Assembly: GCA_027484915.1 (NCBI GenBank)
Contig: JAIXSA010000063.1
Span: 1 to 49,769, forward strand
DNA from: Paracoccaceae bacterium
GTDB lineage: Bacteria > Pseudomonadota > Alphaproteobacteria > Rhodobacterales > Rhodobacteraceae
Direction of reading: 5' to 3'
DNA length: 49,769 nucleotides
Under the pieces are notes generated by a model. It searched no databases, was not told the origin of the DNA, and saw nothing but the letters and a program-made list of their open reading frames with translations. Position numbers and translations under genes: made by a program. The first letter of the stretch is position 1. Each line of letters starts with the position of its first letter. Positions 597 through 9,969 of the stretch are shown in pieces.

Positions 597-1502
597 ATGG
601 CCCAGGTGCGCCGATTGAAGCCCGTGCAGCTAAGGTTGCTGGCGGAGCTTGACCAAGTGGGTGCGCTTGGGCTGGCGGCAGCACGGATTGGCATTGCGCA
701 GCCGGCGGCCTCGCGCCTGCTGGCAGAAATGGAAGGGCTTCTGGGCCTGGCTCTGCATGAACGGCATGGCCGCGGGTTGCAGTTGACCCCGGTGGGGCAG
801 GCCCTGGCCCGACGGGCAGCGCGGATCGAGATCGAACTGGCGGATGCCGCGCGCGACCTGGCCGAGGCGGCGACGGGACGCGCAGGGGTGGTGCGGGTGG
901 GTGCGGTAACGGGCCCGGCGTTAAGCCTGGTGATGCCGACGCTGATCGGCCTGCAGCGAGAGTTGCCGGAGTTTCGGGCAGAGGTGATGGTGTCGACATC
1001 GGTCACTCTCTGCGATCAGTTGCGCGAGGGGCGGCTGGACTTCGCGCTGGCACGGCTGTCGCCGGGTGAAACGCAGCTTGAGGCCAGGGTCATGTCGGCC
1101 GAACCGCTATCGCTGGTGGTGCGGCGGGGTCATCCGCTGCTGGTGCGGCCGATCCTGTCGGTGGATGACCTGCTGGCCTATGACTGGGTGATGGGCGACG
1201 ACGAGACGCTTTTGACGCAGACGGTGGTAAGTCGCCTGACCGAGTTGGGCTTGCCGCAGCCGAAACGGCGGATCTCGACCTCGTCCTTCCTGTTCACGCT
1301 GGCGCTGTTGAACCAGACCGATGCCATCGCGCCGCTGGCCCGGCCGGTGGTCGAAAGCTTTGCCGGGAACCCTTCGGTGCCCTTCGTGTCGCTGCCGGTC
1401 GACCTGGGGCTGGCGGTGGCTCCGTTCAGCCTGGTGACGCGGGCCGGGGCGCAGATGACGCCCTCGGCCCAGCGCCTGATCGAGGCGGTGCTGGCGGCCT
1501 AG
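597..1502 (+). CDS. gbpR: LysR-family regulator, GbpR-like
   Basis: This encodes a transcription factor of 301 residues with an N-terminal winged helix-turn-helix (about residues 5-65, with AAARIGIAQPAASRLL as the recognition region) and a C-terminal periplasmic-binding-like effector domain. In Agrobacterium, GbpR sits next to chvE and controls its induction by sugars. The divergent placement here suggests the same role, which is inference from position and family. The start is uncertain. A GTG at 549 and an ATG at 573 are in frame, but the ATG at 597 has a CAGG-like site and gives the usual LysR length. The sequence CATGAA occurs twice, 20 bp apart (552 and 572), in the divergent promoter region. 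The stop codon shares CTAG with the convergent PanB-like gene. Confidence 0.8.
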   Translation: MAQVRRLKPVQLRLLAELDQVGALGLAAARIGIAQPAASRLLAEMEGLLGLALHERHGRGLQLTPVGQALARRAARIEIELADAARDLAEAATGRAGVVRVGAVTGPALSLVMPTLIGLQRELPEFRAEVMVSTSVTLCDQLREGRLDFALARLSPGETQLEARVMSAEPLSLVVRRGHPLLVRPILSVDDLLAYDWVMGDDETLLTQTVVSRLTELGLPQPKRRISTSSFLFTLALLNQTDAIAPLARPVVESFAGNPSVPFVSLPVDLGLAVAPFSLVTRAGAQMTPSAQRLIEAVLAA

Positions 1503-2296
1503 GCGTTCTGGTCCAGCCAGTCGGCAAAGTCCGCGACGACCTGGGGGTCGCAGTCCACCAGATGCTGCGGCGCGGGGTAGTCGCCGTCGTGGACATCCTT
1601 GGCAAAGCGGGACATCGCGTCGATCCGCAGGGCTTGAAGACGGTCATACTCGGCGGCGAAGTCGGCATAGACCTTGGCATGGCGGGGAATCTTGCCGCGG
1701 TTCTGGCCGAGGACGTCGTCGGTAAAGAGGTACTGTGCGTGGCCACCTGCGCCTGCGCCCATCGAGATGAGAAACAGGTTCGTCTTCTCCGCGATCAGGC
1801 GGGTGATGGAATGGGGGACGACCTCGATTTCCACGGCGAAGGCACCGGCGGCCTCCAGCGCTTTGCACTGGTTCCAGACAAGTTGTGCGGTTTCCAGCGT
1901 CTTGCCCACCGCCTTGAAGCCCCCGGTCCAGGTGCGTTTCGAGGGGATCAGGCCGACATGGCCGCAGACCGGAAGCGCGTGGTCGGTCATGGCGCGGACG
2001 GTGGCCAGCGAGCCGGAGCAGTAGAAGGCATCGGCCCCATGCTTGTACAGCGGGAAGGCCCAGCGCAGGAAATCGTCGGTCCCACCGATTTCGTAGAAGT
2101 TGTCGCCGGGGAAGGCGAAGGCTTCGGGTGCCGCGTCGCGGAAGCGGCGATCCATCACCATTGCGGGCGGAATGGAGAGAAGCTCGACCCCAGCGCGGGC
2201 GGCGGCCTCGGCTTCTTCCAACGTCTCGACCCGCAGCATGGCGAACTGGTGTTTGCCGCGCTGGTCGAGCAGGTCCTTGACGGTGGGCGGTGCCAT
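1499..2296 (-). CDS. Divergent PanB-like (ketopantoate hydroxymethyltransferase family) enzyme in moc-type operon
   Basis: This 265-residue protein has the second half of the PanB fold: LPVCGHVGLIPSK (109-121), EAAGAFAVEIEVVP (148-161) and GAGAGGHAQY (180-189), with E158 where PanB has its general-base glutamate. The N-terminal half lacks PanB landmarks. The GDS motif with the metal aspartate is replaced by LSIPPAM (40-46), and no VKIEGG-type motif is visible. PanB moves a hydroxymethyl group from methylene-tetrahydrofolate to ketoisovalerate. Here the gene is the last of a three-gene operon after a MocD-like oxygenase and a MocE-like ferredoxin, so pantothenate synthesis is unlikely. A role in taking up or transferring the one-carbon unit from O-demethylation is my hypothesis. 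Its ATG overlaps the mocE stop. Confidence 0.75.
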   Translation of the reverse strand: MAPPTVKDLLDQRGKHQFAMLRVETLEEAEAAARAGVELLSIPPAMVMDRRFRDAAPEAFAFPGDNFYEIGGTDDFLRWAFPLYKHGADAFYCSGSLATVRAMTDHALPVCGHVGLIPSKRTWTGGFKAVGKTLETAQLVWNQCKALEAAGAFAVEIEVVPHSITRLIAEKTNLFLISMGAGAGGHAQYLFTDDVLGQNRGKIPRHAKVYADFAAEYDRLQALRIDAMSRFAKDVHDGDYPAPQHLVDCDPQVVADFADWLDQNA

Positions 2297-2607
2297 CACG
2301 CCACCTCGACAAAGACGCGGTCGCCTTCGACCTTCACCGGGAAGGTCTTCAGGTTTACGCAGACGGGCGCGCGCATCGCCTCGCCCGTGCGATAGTCGAA
2401 CTGGCCGTTGTGCTTGGGGCATTCGATCAGATTGCCCATCACCAGGCCGTCGCAAAGATGGACGTTCTCGTGGGTGCAGAGGCCGGCAGTCGCGAAGAAG
2501 TTGCCATCGGGCGAGTGATAGATCGCGAAGGTCTTGCCCGCATGGTCCCAGCGGATCAGGTCTTCTTCGTCGATGTCGGAGGTCGAGCAGGCGTCGATCC
2601 AGGGCAT
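2296..2607 (-). CDS. mocE: MocE-like Rieske [2Fe-2S] ferredoxin
   Basis: This is a 103-residue soluble Rieske-type ferredoxin. The cluster ligands are visible as C44-T-H46 (in GLCTHENVHL) and C63-P-K-H66 (in ECPKHNGQFD). Such proteins carry electrons to an oxygenase. In the rhizobial rhizopine model, MocE passes electrons to MocD, and a reductase, MocF, reloads it. No ferredoxin reductase is present nearby, so a reductase from elsewhere in the genome would have to serve. The gene starts 10 bp after mocD, and its TGA overlaps the ATG of the PanB-like gene, which indicates one transcript with translational coupling. Confidence 0.85.
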   Translation of the reverse strand: MPWIDACSTSDIDEEDLIRWDHAGKTFAIYHSPDGNFFATAGLCTHENVHLCDGLVMGNLIECPKHNGQFDYRTGEAMRAPVCVNLKTFPVKVEGDRVFVEVA

Positions 2608-2617
2608 GTCTTTGTCC

Positions 2618-3709
2618 TTATTCTGCGGCGGCGGGGGGCATCATGCCCGGGACGTATTGGTGGAAATCCTCGCGGTAAGGTTTCGCGGTTGGCGGGAGGT
2701 CGCGCCTCAGGAAGTAGTCCTCGTTCATCACCTGGCGTTTGATCGCGGGCCACATCTCGGCGAACGCCTCGGCGATGGATCGGTTGGGTGGCGGCAGGTC
2801 GCCCTTGATGACCTCATGCAGCCGCGGCAGCGCGTGATAGGGGACCATCGGGAACATGTGATGTTCGACATGGTAGTTCATGTTCCAGTAGATGAAGCGG
2901 CTGACGGGGTTCATGTAGACAGTGCGGCTGTTCAGCCGATGGTCGATGACATTGTCGGCGAGACCCCCGTGTTGCAGAAGGCCGGTCATCACATGGTGCC
3001 ATGCGCCGTACAACCGGGGCAGGCCGATCACCATCAGCGGCAGGAACGAGCCCATCCCCAGCGCCAATGCGATGGTTGCGACGTAGATCGACACATGGAC
3101 GATGGCGACGCGCTGCACCTTGCCCCATTCGCTTTGCGGGACATAGGTGCGCTCTGCCGGCGTCGGGCCGGAGATGGCGTTTCGCAGGATGCGAGGCACG
3201 AAGGCGATGACGTCCAGGATGCCGAAGAAGTTCAGGATCAGCTTCGCCACCTCGGGCGGGCGCATGACGGCGATTTCCGGGTCGCGGCCGACGAAGTAGG
3301 TTTCGGAATGGTGGCGCGCGTGGCTCCAGCGCCAGGTGGCCGAGTTGCGCATGATCATGAAGCTGGCGATTTCGTAGACGACGTTGTTCATCCAGGGTGT
3401 CTTGAAGGCAGTGCCGTGGCCGCATTCGTGCCAGCGCGAGTCCGAGGCAGAACCATAAAGGACACCGTAGGCCAGCCAGAACGGGATCGACCAAATCGAG
3501 GGCCAGAGCGCGATACCGATTCCGGCAAGGACGATCATGCTGCCGTACAGGACTATGGTATCGCGGATCGCCGGGACGTCGCTGCGCGCCATCAGGTCCT
3601 TCATCACCTTGCGCGGCACTTCGGTGTGATACCACTCCGCCGCCGTCAGACCGCTGTCCACCGCACGTTGGGCGTCGGGCCCGAAAAGGCTGTATTCGCG
3701 TTTGCTCAT
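2618..3709 (-). CDS. mocD: MocD-like membrane di-iron oxygenase (fatty-acid-desaturase fold)
   Basis: This encodes a 363-residue integral membrane oxygenase. Three histidine boxes that bind the di-iron centre are plain: HECGH (94-98), HARHH (130-134) and HVEHH (280-284). Hydrophobic segments lie near residues 50-85 and 203-232. The family includes desaturases, alkane hydroxylases and MocD, which is proposed to demethylate 3-O-methyl-scyllo-inosamine. Pairing with a MocE-type ferredoxin and a divergent inositol-type importer supports that assignment over lipid desaturation. The start is the ATG at 3709 with GAGGCAGG upstream; a longer in-frame extension to 3787 lacks a good ribosome site. The gene is the first of the leftward operon. 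Confidence 0.82.
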   Translation of the reverse strand: MSKREYSLFGPDAQRAVDSGLTAAEWYHTEVPRKVMKDLMARSDVPAIRDTIVLYGSMIVLAGIGIALWPSIWSIPFWLAYGVLYGSASDSRWHECGHGTAFKTPWMNNVVYEIASFMIMRNSATWRWSHARHHSETYFVGRDPEIAVMRPPEVAKLILNFFGILDVIAFVPRILRNAISGPTPAERTYVPQSEWGKVQRVAIVHVSIYVATIALALGMGSFLPLMVIGLPRLYGAWHHVMTGLLQHGGLADNVIDHRLNSRTVYMNPVSRFIYWNMNYHVEHHMFPMVPYHALPRLHEVIKGDLPPPNRSIAEAFAEMWPAIKRQVMNEDYFLRRDLPPTAKPYREDFHQYVPGMMPPAAAE

Positions 3710-3858: not shown

Positions 3859-4890
3859 GTGGCACACCGGCCTACCATCCATGATGTCGCCCGCGAGGCT
3901 GGCGTGTCTTCGGCAACCGTCGACCGGGTGCTGAACGGGCGCGAGAAAGTGCGCGAGGAAACCGCGCGCAAGGTCTATGAGGCGGCGCGGCTGATCGGCT
4001 ACCACGCCGCCCCACTGATCGGGCAGCGGGTCCATGCCGACTTGCCTCGCCTGCGGCTTGGGCTTGTGCTGCACAAGGAACGGCAGGCCTTCTATCAGGC
4101 GTTCAAGGCCGAGGCCGAGCGTGCGGTGACCCAGGCGACGGGGGTTCGGGCGTCATTGCAGGTTGCCTTCGCGGCGTCGCAGTCGCCCAAGGATTTCACC
4201 GAACTGATGGAAGGGATGGCGGGCCGCGTCGATGCGATTGCGGCGACGGCGGTGACCCATCCCGAGGTGACCGAGGCCGTGATGCGGCTGAACGCCAAGG
4301 GCATCCCCTGCTTTTCGCTCTTGAACGATTTTGGGCAGGGAGTGCGGCAAAACTATCTGGGTCTCAATAACTTGAGGGTCGGACGGATCGCGGCTCACAT
4401 GATCGCGACGGCCTCGCGCCATGCCGGCAAGATCGCGGTCTTCGTGGGCGGCTATCGATGGCATGGACATGAGCTGCGGGAAACCGGGGTGCGCAGCTAT
4501 TTCCGTGAACACGCGCCGCAGTTTCAGGTGCTGGACACACTGATCAACCTGGAAACCCGACAGCTGACTTATGAGGCGACGCTGGATCTTCTGTCCCGCC
4601 ATCCGGACTTACGCGGCATCTACTGTGCGGGCGGCGGGATGGAGGGTGCCATTGCAGCCGTGCGCGAGGCGCGCGAGCCCGGAGAGGTGGCGCTGGTGGT
4701 GAACGAGCTTACCCCGGAAAGCCGGGCGGCGCTGATCGGTCGGCATGTGACGATGGTGATCGCCACCCCGCTTCAGCGGCTGTGCGATGATCTTGTGCGT
4801 CTGGCGGCCGAAGCGGTGAACGGGGGAATGGTTCCGGTGCAGGGCCAGCACTTCCTGCCGCCAGACCTGTACCTTCCCGAGTCGGTCTGA
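3859..4890 (+). CDS. LacI-family transcriptional regulator of the moc-like locus
   Basis: This 343-residue regulator has an N-terminal LacI helix-turn-helix (residues 4-50: TIHDVAREAGVSSATVDRVLNG) and a sugar-binding-type effector domain from about residue 60. The helix carries ATVDRVLN in place of the common HxTVSRVLN, a variant seen in regulators of sugar ABC operons. It is likely to repress the divergent mocDE operon and the downstream transport operon until an inositol-like ligand binds. The start is the GTG at 3859. The stop codon TGA lies within one of the TTTCGTCA-type motifs, in inverted orientation. Known rhizobial moc loci use a different type of regulator (MocR), so control here has been replaced. 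Confidence 0.85.
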   Translation: MAHRPTIHDVAREAGVSSATVDRVLNGREKVREETARKVYEAARLIGYHAAPLIGQRVHADLPRLRLGLVLHKERQAFYQAFKAEAERAVTQATGVRASLQVAFAASQSPKDFTELMEGMAGRVDAIAATAVTHPEVTEAVMRLNAKGIPCFSLLNDFGQGVRQNYLGLNNLRVGRIAAHMIATASRHAGKIAVFVGGYRWHGHELRETGVRSYFREHAPQFQVLDTLINLETRQLTYEATLDLLSRHPDLRGIYCAGGGMEGAIAAVREAREPGEVALVVNELTPESRAALIGRHVTMVIATPLQRLCDDLVRLAAEAVNGGMVPVQGQHFLPPDLYLPESV

Positions 4891-5019: not shown

Positions 5020-5826
5020 ATGATCCACTTCGCTTTGAACCACATGACGGTGGCGCGCCTCTCGTTCCGCGAGCTTGTCGATCTGTCCAAGACGCTGGGT
5101 TGCGTCGGGATCGAGGTCCGGAATGACCTGCCCCAGCCGCTGTTCGACGGCATGGACCCAGCCGAGGCCGGGGCGCATGTCCGCGCCAATGGGCTGCGTC
5201 TTCTCGCGGTGGCCGAGGTGAAGCGGTTCAACGACTGGTCGTCAGACAAGGAAGCCGAGGCGCTGGCGCTGATGAAGATCGCAAAGGCGGCGGGCGCGGA
5301 AGCGGTGAGCCTGATCCCGCGCAACGACAACCTGGGCATGGGCAACGGCGAGCGGCAGGCGAACCTGCGCGTCGCGCTGAAGGCGCTGAAGCCGATGCTG
5401 GAGGATCACAACCTCGTCGGCATGGTGGAACCGCTGGGCTTCGAGATCTGCGCGCTGCGCTACAAGGCGGAGGCCGTCGAGGGGATCGAAGCCGTTGGTG
5501 GCAAGGGGCGGTTCAAGTTGGTCCACGATACCTTCCACCACACGCTGGCGCACGGCGGCCCACTGTTCCCCGAGCATACCGGGATCGTCCACGTCTCGGG
5601 CGTGGTGGACCAGGAGGTCGGGATTGCGGACATGCGCGATCCGCATCGGGTTCTGGTGACGCCGGGCGACCGTCTGGGCAACGTTGAGCAGATTGCAGCG
5701 CTGCAGGCGGCCGGCTGGAACGGCCCGGTCAGCTTTGAAGCGTTCTCGCCAGACGTCCATGCGCTGACCGACCCGGAAGCGGCCCTGCGCGCCAGCATGG
5801 ACTACATGGCGCGGATAGAGGCGTGA
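5020..5826 (+). CDS. mocC: MocC/IolI-like TIM-barrel sugar isomerase/epimerase
   Basis: This 268-residue protein is of the xylose-isomerase-like TIM-barrel family that includes IolI (inosose isomerase), IolE and MocC. Likely metal ligands are E137 (in MVEPLG), D170 (in LVHDTFHH), H191 (in VHVSG) and E240 (in SFEAF), which matches the E-D-H-E pattern of IolI. MocC is required for rhizopine use in rhizobia, and the gene is placed between regulator and transporter as expected for that role. I cannot tell IolI from MocC activity by sequence alone. The start is the ATG at 5020 with GGGAGG upstream; the reading frame is open back to 4909, but that stretch holds the putative operator. Confidence 0.78.
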   Translation: MIHFALNHMTVARLSFRELVDLSKTLGCVGIEVRNDLPQPLFDGMDPAEAGAHVRANGLRLLAVAEVKRFNDWSSDKEAEALALMKIAKAAGAEAVSLIPRNDNLGMGNGERQANLRVALKALKPMLEDHNLVGMVEPLGFEICALRYKAEAVEGIEAVGGKGRFKLVHDTFHHTLAHGGPLFPEHTGIVHVSGVVDQEVGIADMRDPHRVLVTPGDRLGNVEQIAALQAAGWNGPVSFEAFSPDVHALTDPEAALRASMDYMARIEA

Positions 5827-5989: not shown

Positions 5990-6931
5990 ATGAAGAAGAC
6001 CCTTATCGCTGCAGGCTTCGCCTCGCTGCTTGGCACCACCGCGATGGCCGATGGGATCGGCGTTTCGATGGCGCTGTTCGACGACAACTTCCTGACCGTC
6101 CTGCGCAACGGGATCCAGGAACAGGCCGACGCGGCTGGCCTGTCGGTGCAGATCGAGGATGCGCAGAACGACGTGGCCAAGCAGCTGGACCAAATCAACA
6201 ACTTCATTGCCTCGGGCGTTGACGCGATCATCGTGAACCCGGTCGACACCTCGGCCACGCAGGCGATGTCGGACGCCGCTGCCGCTGCGGGCGTGCCGCT
6301 TGTCTATGTGAACCGCCAGCCGATCAACGTCGACAGCCTGCCCGACAACCAGGCCTTCGTTGCGTCGAACGAGTCGGAATCGTCGCGCCAGGGCTTCATC
6401 GAGCAGTGCAACCAGTGGAAAGCCGCTGGCAAGGAAGAAGTCAGCGTCTACGTGATGCAGGGGGAACTGTCGAACCAGGCCGCCGTGCAGCGCACGCAGA
6501 ACTATTATGACGTGATGGAAGCCGGCGAATGCGCGGTGAAAGTCAACGTGATCGACCAGCAGACCGCCAACTGGTCGCGGGATCAGGCGCAATCGCTGAT
6601 GACCAACTGGCTGTCGACCGGTGCAGCCTTCGACGGCGTGCTGGCCAACAACGACGAGATGGCGCTGGGCGCGATCCAGGCGATGAAGGCTGCGGGCATC
6701 GACATGGCGTCGGTCATCGTTTCGGGCGTCGATGCGACCCAGGATGCGCTGGCTTCGATGCAGGCTGGCGAGCTGGACATCACCGTGTTCCAGAACGCGG
6801 CGGCCCAGGGCGGCGGCGCGCTGGACGCGGCGGTCAAGCTGGCCAAGGGTGAGGCGGTGGACCAGAAGGTCTACATCCCGTTCGAACTGGTGACCCCGGC
6901 GAACATCGACGGCTATCTGTCGAAGAACTGA
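5990..6931 (+). CDS. mocB: Inositol/rhizopine-type ABC transporter substrate-binding protein (MocB-like)
   Basis: This is a 313-residue periplasmic binding protein of the RbsB/ribose class (Peripla_BP_4). The signal peptide is residues 1-20, with predicted cleavage after TAMA. The mature start GIGVSMALFDDNFLTVLRNG resembles inositol- and rhizopine-binding proteins. Ligand-contact regions typical of the fold are seen at NPVDTSATQ and VNRQPIN. It would capture the substrate and deliver it to the permease and ATPase encoded just downstream. The start is well defined by GGGAGG before the ATG. A hairpin with a T-run follows the gene, which would give more binding protein than membrane components. 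Confidence 0.85.
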   Translation: MKKTLIAAGFASLLGTTAMADGIGVSMALFDDNFLTVLRNGIQEQADAAGLSVQIEDAQNDVAKQLDQINNFIASGVDAIIVNPVDTSATQAMSDAAAAAGVPLVYVNRQPINVDSLPDNQAFVASNESESSRQGFIEQCNQWKAAGKEEVSVYVMQGELSNQAAVQRTQNYYDVMEAGECAVKVNVIDQQTANWSRDQAQSLMTNWLSTGAAFDGVLANNDEMALGAIQAMKAAGIDMASVIVSGVDATQDALASMQAGELDITVFQNAAAQGGGALDAAVKLAKGEAVDQKVYIPFELVTPANIDGYLSKN

Positions 6932-6980: not shown

Positions 6981-7043
6981 CTGGTGCAGATGGGGTAGCA
7001 TCGGCCAGAGTCGTTGAACGCGCATTCAGGGGAGGAGGGCGAC

Positions 7044-8156
7044 GTGGCAGAAGCAACGCATGGACTGGGCGGCTTGAAATACGACCCGGCAAAACGCACC
7101 CGCGCGCCGGAGTGGAACGTGTTCGGCGCACTGGTCCTGATTGTCCTGGTCTTCGAGATCCTGAACCGCATGCAGGGGGCCTCGTTCCTCTTCAACATGC
7201 GCGACAATGTCGACGCGATCTTCAACCAGCAGCGGCTGGACATCATGATCCTGCAGGTTGCGATCATCGGGATCATCGCGCTGGGGGTGACGCAGGTCAT
7301 TATCATCGGCGGGATCGACCTGTCGTCGGGGTCCGTGGTGGGCGCCACGGCGATGATCGTGATGAGCTTTGCGCAAACCGCGATGGTCAACGGCAACCCG
7401 AACCCAAAGGCGATCTTCGGCGAATGGGCGATGGACCTGCCGGTGATCGTGCCGATTGTCGTAGGACTTGCCTGCGGGTTGTTTGCTGGCCTGATCAATG
7501 GCTTGCTGATCGCCTACACCAAGATTCCGCCCTTCATCGCGACGCTGGGCGTGATGGTTTCCGCGCGCGGTGCGGCGCGCTGGTGGTCGAATGGCCAGCC
7601 TGTAAGCTTTCCGACCGAGACCTACGGCAGCCTTGCCAACGGCGACCTTCTGGGGGGAATGACCTTCGGCCTTCTGTCCTGGCAAGGCCAGAATCCCGCC
7701 GTGGTCTTCGTGCTGCTTGCGATCCTGTTCCACGTCATCATGACGTACACGCTTTACGGAAAGCGGTCCTACGCCATCGGATCCAACGAAGCGGCGGCGC
7801 GGATGTCGGGGATCAACGTCGACCGTCACAAGGTGCTGGTCTATGCAATCGCCGGACTACTGGCGGCAGTAGCGGCGATCCTCTTGACCTCGAAGAACCT
7901 GACGGCGCAGGCCGGCATGGGGGTGATGTACGAACTCGACGCCATCGCGATGGCCGTCATCGGGGGCGTGTCGCTGGCGGGGGGTCGAGGGTCGATCATC
8001 GGCACGGTGCTGGGTGCCGCGATCTTTTCGGTGATCATCTCGGGCTTCACCTCGATCAAGCTGGACGCCTACTATCAGGAGATGGTCAAGGGCGCGATCA
8101 TCGTGGGCGCGGTTGTGCTGGACCAGTGGCGTCAACGCAAACGGACCCGGGGGTAA
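7044..8156 (+). CDS. Sugar/inositol ABC transporter permease (RbsC family)
   Basis: This is a 370-residue inner-membrane permease with many hydrophobic helices, including FGALVLIVLVFEIL near the N terminus and the conserved block GMGVMYELDAIAMAVIGG followed by SLAGGRGSIIGTVLGA. These are hallmarks of the BPD_transp_2 (RbsC/XylH) family. It forms the channel for the substrate bound by the upstream binding protein. The start is taken as the GTG at 7044, behind a strong GGGGAGGAGGG; an in-frame ATG at 7014 would place that ribosome site inside the gene. The stop is four bases before the ATPase start. Confidence 0.85.
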   Translation: MAEATHGLGGLKYDPAKRTRAPEWNVFGALVLIVLVFEILNRMQGASFLFNMRDNVDAIFNQQRLDIMILQVAIIGIIALGVTQVIIIGGIDLSSGSVVGATAMIVMSFAQTAMVNGNPNPKAIFGEWAMDLPVIVPIVVGLACGLFAGLINGLLIAYTKIPPFIATLGVMVSARGAARWWSNGQPVSFPTETYGSLANGDLLGGMTFGLLSWQGQNPAVVFVLLAILFHVIMTYTLYGKRSYAIGSNEAAARMSGINVDRHKVLVYAIAGLLAAVAAILLTSKNLTAQAGMGVMYELDAIAMAVIGGVSLAGGRGSIIGTVLGAAIFSVIISGFTSIKLDAYYQEMVKGAIIVGAVVLDQWRQRKRTRG

Positions 8157-8160
8157 GTCC

Positions 8161-8928
8161 ATGTCCAAGATCATTCTGGAAACCCGTGGCCTGACAAAGC
8201 ATTACGGCGGTGTGCATGCGCTGGACGATGCGAACTTCATTCTGCACGAGGGCGAGCATGTCGCCGTCGTGGGCGACAACGGGGCTGGAAAATCCACTTT
8301 CGTCCGGCAGGTGACGGCGGTCGAGCAGCGGACCTCGGGCGAGATCGTTTTCGACGGCCAGCCGGTCAGTTTCTCTGGCCCGCTAGAGGCGAGACAGGCC
8401 GGGATCGAGACGGTGTTCCAGACGCTGGCGCTGGCCGACGACCTGGACGTGCCGTCGAACTTGTTCCTGGGGCGCGAGCTGTTCAAGTTCAAGCTCGGGC
8501 CGTTCTCCTGGCTGGACCGCAAGACGATGCGTGACCGGACGATGGAGGCTTTGGCGACCACTGCGGTCAAGATCCCCAACGTCGACAACCCGATCCGCAA
8601 CATGTCGGGCGGGCAGCGGCAATGCGTGTCCATCGCTCGGACGGCGGCTTTTGCATCGAAACTGGTGATCATGGACGAACCCACAGCGGCGCTGGGGGTG
8701 CAGGAGACGGCTCAGGTCGAAAACATCATCCGCGGATTGAAGGATCGCGGCATTCCGATGATCCTGATCAGCCACAATCTGCGGCAGGTGTTCGATCTGG
8801 TGGACCGGATCGTGGTTTTTCGTCGGGGCCGGATCGTCGCCTCCTTGCGGAAGGACGAGACCGACGGCAATGACATCGTGAGCTACATCACGGGCGTGAA
8901 GGGCGGCAGTGACGCCGCTTACGCCTGA
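8161..8928 (+). CDS. Sugar/inositol ABC transporter ATP-binding protein (single-domain)
   Basis: This 255-residue ATPase has Walker A GDNGAGKST (38-46), signature MSGGQRQ (148-154), Walker B LVIMDEP (168-174) and the switch histidine H205 in ISHNL. It carries one nucleotide-binding domain, unlike the two-domain RbsA type, so it must work as a homodimer. It powers import through the upstream permease. The ATG at 8161 starts four bases after the permease stop, with GGGGTAAG as ribosome site. Confidence 0.87.
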   Translation: MSKIILETRGLTKHYGGVHALDDANFILHEGEHVAVVGDNGAGKSTFVRQVTAVEQRTSGEIVFDGQPVSFSGPLEARQAGIETVFQTLALADDLDVPSNLFLGRELFKFKLGPFSWLDRKTMRDRTMEALATTAVKIPNVDNPIRNMSGGQRQCVSIARTAAFASKLVIMDEPTAALGVQETAQVENIIRGLKDRGIPMILISHNLRQVFDLVDRIVVFRRGRIVASLRKDETDGNDIVSYITGVKGGSDAAYA

Positions 8929-8967: not shown

Positions 8968-9969
8968 ATGACGATCAGGTTCGGGCTTTTGGGTGCGGGG
9001 CGCATCGGGAAGGTTCATGCGAAGGCGGTGACGGGCAACCCGGCTGCCAAGCTGGTGGCGGTGTCGGATGCAATGCCCGCGGCGGCTCAGGCGATTGCGG
9101 ATCAGTATGGCTGCGACGTGCGGACCATCGACGCGATTGCGGCGGCGAAGGACATCGACGCGGTGGTGATCTGCACGCCGACCGATACCCACGCCGACCT
9201 GATCGAGCAGTTCGTGAAGGCCGGGAAGGCTGTGTTCTGCGAAAAGCCCATCGACCTGTCGCTGGCCCGCGTCAAGCAGTGCCTGGACGTCGTCCGCGCC
9301 CACAAGGGCACGCTGATGGTCGGCTTCAACCGCCGCTTTGATCCGCATTTCCAGGCGGTGCGGGGCGAGATCGACAAGGGGACCATCGGGGACGTGGAGA
9401 TGGTGACGATCACCAGCCGCGATCCGGGGGCGCCTCCCGTCGACTATATCAAGCGGTCGGGCGGGATCTTCCGGGACATGACGATCCATGACTTCGACAT
9501 GGCGCGGTTCCTGTTGGGGGAAGAGGTCTCCGAGGTCTCGGCGATGGCGGCGGTTCTTGTGGACCCAGCGATTGGGAAGGCGGGGGACAGTGACAGCGTC
9601 CAGGTGATGCTGAAGACGGCGTCGGGGAAGATGGCGGTGATCTCGAACTCGCGCAGGGCGACCTATGGGTACGACCAGCGGATCGAGGTGCACGGGTCGG
9701 GCGGGTCGGTCGCGGCCGAGAACCAGCGGCCGGTTTCGATCGAGGTTGCGACCGGGGCGGGGTATACCCGGCCGCCGCTGCATGACTTCTTCATGACCCG
9801 GTATACCGAGGCCTACGCGGCCGAGATCGCGGCTTTCATCGATGCGATGGGGGGCAAGGCCAAGGCTTCGCCGTCGGGAGAGGATGGGCTGCTGGCCCTG
9901 GCCCTGGCCGAAGCCGCGCTGAAGTCGGTCGCCGAGGGGCGGGTCGTGAAGATGAGCGAGATCCTGTGA
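8968..9969 (+). CDS. iolG: Gfo/Idh/MocA dehydrogenase, inositol 2-dehydrogenase type (MocA/IolG)
   Basis: This 333-residue NAD(P)-dependent oxidoreductase has an N-terminal Rossmann fold, GLLGAGRIGKVHA (6-18). Catalytic residues are K93 in CEKP and D170/H174 in GIFRDMTIHDFDM, the standard inositol dehydrogenase set. It should oxidise an inositol or inosamine ring hydroxyl to the keto form. MocA of rhizopine catabolism and IolG of inositol breakdown belong to the same subfamily, and I cannot separate them here. It is the last gene of the transport operon; AGGAGA precedes the ATG. A terminator hairpin lies 80 bp downstream. Confidence 0.85.
   Translation: MTIRFGLLGAGRIGKVHAKAVTGNPAAKLVAVSDAMPAAAQAIADQYGCDVRTIDAIAAAKDIDAVVICTPTDTHADLIEQFVKAGKAVFCEKPIDLSLARVKQCLDVVRAHKGTLMVGFNRRFDPHFQAVRGEIDKGTIGDVEMVTITSRDPGAPPVDYIKRSGGIFRDMTIHDFDMARFLLGEEVSEVSAMAAVLVDPAIGKAGDSDSVQVMLKTASGKMAVISNSRRATYGYDQRIEVHGSGGSVAAENQRPVSIEVATGAGYTRPPLHDFFMTRYTEAYAAEIAAFIDAMGGKAKASPSGEDGLLALALAEAALKSVAEGRVVKMSEIL

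Follow-up and report, generated by a model that had tools for sequence, protein, structure and literature searches.

Oxygenases that hydroxylate methyl ethers release formaldehyde, and PanB, the ketopantoate hydroxymethyltransferase (KPHMT), joins a folate-borne one-carbon unit to a metal-held keto acid. Here we describe a locus in which the two chemistries may be combined. It lies in the window, a stretch of 49,769 nucleotides from a Paracoccaceae bacterium (contig JAIXSA010000063.1 of assembly GCA_027484915.1), and encodes a PanB-like protein, termed PanBL, next to homologues of the MocD oxygenase and the MocE ferredoxin. We take the step catalyzed by the products of the rhizopine genes mocDEF of rhizobia to be an O-demethylation. 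The relevant passages of PMC10107442 and PMC5132102 are silent on this point, and state, citing Bahar 1998, that mocDEF is involved in the catabolism of rhizopine. For the reaction of formaldehyde with tetrahydrofolate (THF), the pertinent section of PMC8879981 describes only a spontaneous condensation. In the corresponding parts of their paper, He et al. 2020 (PMC7073904) judge the unaided reaction to be too slow and weigh PanB as a possible promiscuous catalyst, and deletion of panB left growth unchanged in their Escherichia coli test. A folate-cleaving side reaction of PanB is discussed in a passage of PMC4814558. For the locus in the window, we propose, with a probability of about 0.45, that MocD, MocE and PanBL act together with a sugar transporter and an inositol dehydrogenase in the uptake and oxidative O-demethylation of a methylated cyclitol or sugar, and that PanBL places the one-carbon unit on THF.

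The three genes are read from the minus strand in the order mocD, mocE, PanBL. The mocE gene ends in GCG TGA, and the ATG of PanBL uses the same A (TGATG), so that stop and start codons overlap by one base. The translational coupling of the PanB-like gene to mocE and mocD homologues had been pointed out in a preliminary description of this DNA and is confirmed; mocD is the first gene of the set. The histidine boxes HECGH, HARHH and HVEHH are readable in the MocD translation. PanBL matches the Pfam model PF02548 (Pantoate_transf) with 118.5 bits over residues 77-242 (cut-off 28.7), but remains far below the cut-offs of the NCBIfam models for PanB (TIGR00222, 89.9 bits versus 207.55; NF001452, 106.3 bits versus 272). 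The motifs HVGL, GGFK, IEVVP and GAG..Q are common to PanBL and the full PanB of the same genome, and the C-terminal PanB landmarks are retained, as first described. The PanB motifs VGDS, DxPF and VKLEGG are replaced by SIPP, PGDN and FYCS. The initial claim that the N-terminal metal and lysine motifs are missing holds for the motifs, but not for the domain, since the KPHMT fold of the confidently predicted structure includes the N-terminal barrel half. According to this model, PanBL is a diverged full-length barrel without truncation. A truncated or decayed PanB was considered and rejected in view of the confident model and the strictly conserved residues.

In E. coli PanB numbering, we take Asp45, Asp84 and Glu114 to be the metal ligands, Lys112 to be the active-site lysine, and His136 and Glu181 to be catalytic. 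Equivalents of Asp45, Asp84, Glu114 and Lys112 are absent from the PanBL of the window, whereas His136 and Glu181 correspond to H113 and E158. The same pattern holds for the family, which we defined as 133 PanB-like genes with profile scores above 180 bits. Of these, 83 come from 80 loci (the closest 80 of 520 encoding stretches), 5 from five of the 644 plasmid records that gave a match, 23 and 20 from two surveys of 385 and 398 genomes, and 2 from the genome of the window. The sampling over-represents Rhodobacterales, which the grouping into 39 clusters at 75% identity was meant to offset, although the clusters are not fully independent. The equivalents of His136 and Glu181 are present in all 133 proteins, whereas Asp45 survives in two and Asp84 in one; none retains Lys112 or Glu114. 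K132, the most conserved lysine (130/133), is located off the barrel strands, just past the loop in which the model is least confident. Compared to the PanB proteins of E. coli (1m3u), Mycobacterium tuberculosis (1oy0) and Burkholderia (3vav), PanBL thus lacks the metal ligands and Lys112, has conserved YC, WTGG, ExEVVP and PRH motifs of its own, and accompanies oxygenases.

The closest relatives of PanBL, among the best 80 of the 520 stretches, are found in Tabrizicola and other Rhodobacteraceae, so that the host probably belongs to this family. Relatives are publicly annotated as PanB. In a tree, 45 PanBL rows cluster together with 100/100 support, separate from four PanB-type rows. Eight PanB-type loci (L143-L150, 138-160 bits), a 114-bit fragment in L135 and a fragment match (G433, 170.7 bits) were left out of the family. 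The eight loci represent a second PanB-like group, in which the GDS motif is kept, Asp84 is replaced by Ser or Cys, and Glu114 by Gln; weak PhyH-like BLAST labels (25-29% identity) occur at three of them. A 1.6 Mb genome (G161, loci L128-L130) has four PanBL paralogues, two of them in tandem. One lies beside two desaturase-like genes, FA_hydroxylase, SMP30 and IlvD/EDD genes, and another beside a GH4 glycosidase gene. An apparent fusion at a further locus (L127, open frame of 624 amino acids) was dismissed, because its extra N-terminal stretch looks by eye like an out-of-frame read-in.

The association with oxygenases in the family far exceeds that in a distance control. Neighbors were counted strictly (same strand, at least 30% identity, less than 3 kb away) and compared to a control ring 4.5-7.5 kb away, which is limited by early locus ends (7.5 kb were present on both sides for 88/133 genes). 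The labels are from BLAST, in some cases at about 30% identity, and a Pfam scan covers part of the neighbor genes. By the strict count, an oxygenase gene is found near 112/133 PanBL genes and in 31/39 clusters, versus 2/133 and 1/39 in the ring; a looser count, extended to 4 kb without limits on strand or identity, gives 118/133 and 36/39. For mocE, the strict count is 105/133, versus 1/133 in the ring. The preliminary description had anticipated co-occurrence with mocDE and had named its absence from other genomes as evidence to the contrary. The co-occurrence is indeed seen across many lineages, but it is not limited to mocDE, as the partners comprise MocD, sterol-desaturase/FA_hydroxylase, Rieske and 2-oxoglutarate type (TauD, PhyH) oxygenases. 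According to parsimony on loose labels, the partner type has changed at least 11 times on the tree. Among 385 alphaproteobacteria, 21 have PanBL, 11 have MocE above cut-off, and seven have both (Fisher 1.4e-7). Of the 82 PanBL genes that closely follow a mocE gene, 45 show, in a loose string test, a mocE stop that touches or overlaps a start.

Some individual loci illustrate the variety of partners. In a Tabrizicola member of a mocD-bearing clade (L068, 7938-8783), an upstream sterol-desaturase-type gene replaces mocD and mocE lies downstream, which amounts to a partner swap. In three alphaproteobacterial genomes of 1.4 Mb (L124, L125, L126), a desaturase-like gene overlaps or adjoins PanBL, and DUF1800 and DUF1501 genes follow PanBL at two of these loci (Pfam for L124, BLAST label for L126).

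The one-carbon link put forward at the outset is supported by neighbors from folate metabolism. The purU gene is found near 8/133 PanBL genes in 5/39 clusters by the strict count, and near 9/133 in 6/39 by the looser one (any strand, 4 kb). The strict count for folD is 2/133, in 2/39 clusters, and both genes are absent from the ring. A rough binomial estimate for purU in 6/39 clusters is ~1e-9, if the clusters are taken as independent and genomes as carrying 1.5 copies per 5 Mb. On the tree, the presence of purU changes at least six times by parsimony (loose labels). The clearest locus is on a Mesorhizobium plasmid, with the order mocD, mocE, ferredoxin reductase, PanBL, purU, folD. In eight searched genomes with a PanBL-purU pair, there are one or two purU copies above cut-off. 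The PanBL-adjacent copy is the only one above cut-off in five of the eight, although in two of them another match scores below it (274.6 and 218.3 bits). No purU or folD labels were seen at seven mocE loci without PanBL, which are too few to weigh. At another locus, on a Rhizobium leguminosarum plasmid (L087, 9822-10820), an NrtR-type winged-helix gene is located between PanBL and nadA, L-aspartate oxidase and nadC genes.

Of the two acceptors that had been suggested, a keto acid or folate, the data favor folate, because the keto-acid and metal half of the active site is gone, and because folate genes adjoin some of the copies. The acid-base pair is kept, the metal and keto-acid side is lost, and in some genomes PanBL is placed between oxygenases and FolD/PurU. 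In the simplest reading, a keto acid would no longer be used, and the barrel would exchange a one-carbon unit between formaldehyde, or a hydroxymethyl group, and THF.

Features of the PanBL locus and its divergent neighbors in the window
Feature	Position	Strand	Remarks
PanBL, PanB-like protein, KPHMT-fold barrel without metal ligands, predicted one-carbon (formaldehyde) transferase	1499..2296	-	265 aa, complete
MocE-family Rieske [2Fe-2S] ferredoxin	2296..2607	-	103 aa; TIGR02377 167.8 bits (cut-off 136.15)
MocD-like membrane di-iron oxygenase (fatty-acid-desaturase family)	2618..3709	-	363 aa; first in set; PF00487 125.6 bits
LacI-family regulator, divergent	3859..4890	+	Pfam
Xylose-isomerase-like TIM barrel (AP_endonuc_2)	5020..5826	+	Pfam
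ABC substrate-binding protein, sugar-type	5990..6931	+	Pfam, NCBIfam
ABC permease, sugar-type	7014..8156	+	Pfam, NCBIfam; start uncertain
ABC ATPase, sugar-type	8158..8928	+	Pfam, NCBIfam; start uncertain
Inositol 2-dehydrogenase IolG	8968..9969	+	TIGR04380 427.4 bits (cut-off 355)

The presence of IolG in the divergent set points to a cyclitol substrate. On the other side of PanBL, a LysR regulator gene (549-1502) is convergent with it, for which the best model is PcaQ, below its cut-off, and an edge-cut frame (3-431) resembles by eye a sugar substrate-binding protein. The genome of the window contains three PF02548 genes, namely a full panB on contig C103 (357.7 bits), directly followed by a frame that reads by eye as panC, the PanBL of the window, and a PanB-like gene on contig C22. 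The original suggestion of a repurposed PanB is supported. The lack of any other panB, combined with ketopantoate synthesis by PanBL, had been named as evidence to the contrary, and a separate full panB is present. The C22 gene is part of another such set (mocD, PanB-like, mocE, in this order), close to genes for an enolase-type dehydratase, an aldose epimerase and a sugar ABC transporter. Each of the two MocE genes detected in the genome adjoins a PanB-like gene, and two iolD genes score above cut-off.

In the proposed pathway, the divergent sugar transporter would import a methylated sugar or a methylated cyclitol such as an O-methyl-inositol, and MocD and MocE would hydroxylate its methyl ether. 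The resulting hydroxymethyl ether would yield inositol, to be burnt via the iol pathway, and formaldehyde. PanBL would move the free formaldehyde or the hydroxymethyl group onto THF to form 5,10-methylene-THF, from which FolD and PurU may, in some lineages, take the one-carbon unit to formate. The substrate, the demethylation by the MocD of the window, the binding of folate by PanBL and the PanBL reaction are all parts of the scheme that we infer. As a tentative generalization, PanBL could have descended from PanB as a metal-free, dedicated formaldehyde-activating enzyme specific for THF, and could work with demethylating oxygenases of many unrelated kinds.

Several points weigh against this proposal. 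Formaldehyde and THF can react unaided, and the putative role of this MocD in demethylation is carried over from the rhizopine work. The adjacency of purU and folD indicates a pathway via folate, but is not proof that PanBL itself is a folate enzyme. There is no purU label within 4 kb of 124/133 PanBL genes, although some of these loci end early, and the best PurU match in the genome of the window is not close (33% identity, 51.8 bits). By the strict count, 8/39 clusters are without an oxygenase. Conversely, PanBL is missing from the DNA fetched around seven of the 13 mocE genes that score above cut-off in the 385 genomes; three of these seven are in genomes with PanBL elsewhere. As mocE modules without PanBL exist, PanBL is optional, and dispensable for such oxygenases.

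Alternatively, PanBL may retain PanB chemistry with a new acceptor, joining formaldehyde to some other 2-keto acid to form a hydroxymethyl keto acid. The fold and the His/Glu pair are retained, and E. coli PanB can, according to the relevant part of PMC7610986, act as a metal-dependent aldolase that takes formaldehyde and other aldehydes. However, no gene for a hydroxymethyl keto acid recurs among the scanned neighbors, which are a part of all neighbors. Moreover, nearly all of the 133 proteins have lost Lys112 and the residues that we take to bind the divalent, keto-acid-activating metal, and this alternative is therefore unlikely.

PanBL might also be a metal-free C-C lyase that acts downstream on a sugar-acid or inosose intermediate, so that the link to oxygenases would reflect only a shared pathway. 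Consistent with such a role, PanBL has a gene for a lactonase, an aldose epimerase or a sugar-acid dehydratase of the IlvD/EDD or enolase type in its vicinity at several loci, and a DHDPS-type aldolase gene lies near one oxygenase-mocE locus without PanBL. A lyase would leave unexplained the adjacency of purU and folD, and the TauD/PhyH loci without a labeled sugar gene. The family also lacks a class II metal site, and the position of K132 described above is not on a barrel strand, which makes this role improbable.

A further alternative is a role of PanBL as a folate-free accessory protein or sensor of the oxygenases, for example in splitting of the hydroxymethyl hemiacetal or in ferredoxin docking. 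It would fit the tight mocE junctions and the partnership with oxygenases of several folds, but the partners appear too varied for a specific docking protein, and neither the invariant active site residues nor the purU/folD neighbors would be accounted for; we consider it improbable. That PanBL is a regular or redundant PanB serving pantothenate synthesis, as the public annotation of the relatives and the PF02548 score might suggest, can be dismissed almost entirely in view of the NCBIfam scores, the separate panB and the residues lost across the family.

The PanBL activity is thus a proposed new activity in a known fold. Among the open-licence literature matches listed, titles and abstract openings do not describe a PanB-like protein in demethylase operons. 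The rhizopine mocDEF system is similar to the PanBL sets in combining a MocD-type oxygenase with a MocE ferredoxin, needed to catabolize an inositol-type compound, but the passages of PMC10107442 and PMC5132102 name no PanB-like gene in it. At seven loci with a rhizopine binding protein (NF052284 above cut-off), the fetched DNA has no mocD, mocE or PanBL label; the published operon is not among them. The P450-dependent demethylation of 6-O-methyl-galactose is likewise an oxidative demethylation of a sugar with release of formaldehyde, but it relies on a different oxygenase, and the title suggests that formaldehyde is disposed of in another way, with alcohol dehydrogenases (PMC10033563, in part).

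If the proposal is correct, hundreds of genes now called PanB would have to be reannotated, given the 520 encoding stretches found. The pathway could explain why bacteria that use methylated sugars and cyclitols escape damage by formaldehyde, and PanBL could become a part for synthetic one-carbon assimilation. Being widespread, and encoded next to oxygenases and, in part of the genomes, to FolD and PurU, the PanBL family provides a concrete candidate catalyst for the condensation of formaldehyde with THF. It would then be the folate counterpart of the formaldehyde-activating enzyme Fae, which, like Gfa, we presume to belong to another protein family. According to the relevant section of PMC8879981, Fae and Gfa accelerate the reaction in which formaldehyde condenses with a carrier, as we propose for PanBL, but the carriers are tetrahydromethanopterin and glutathione, respectively, instead of THF.
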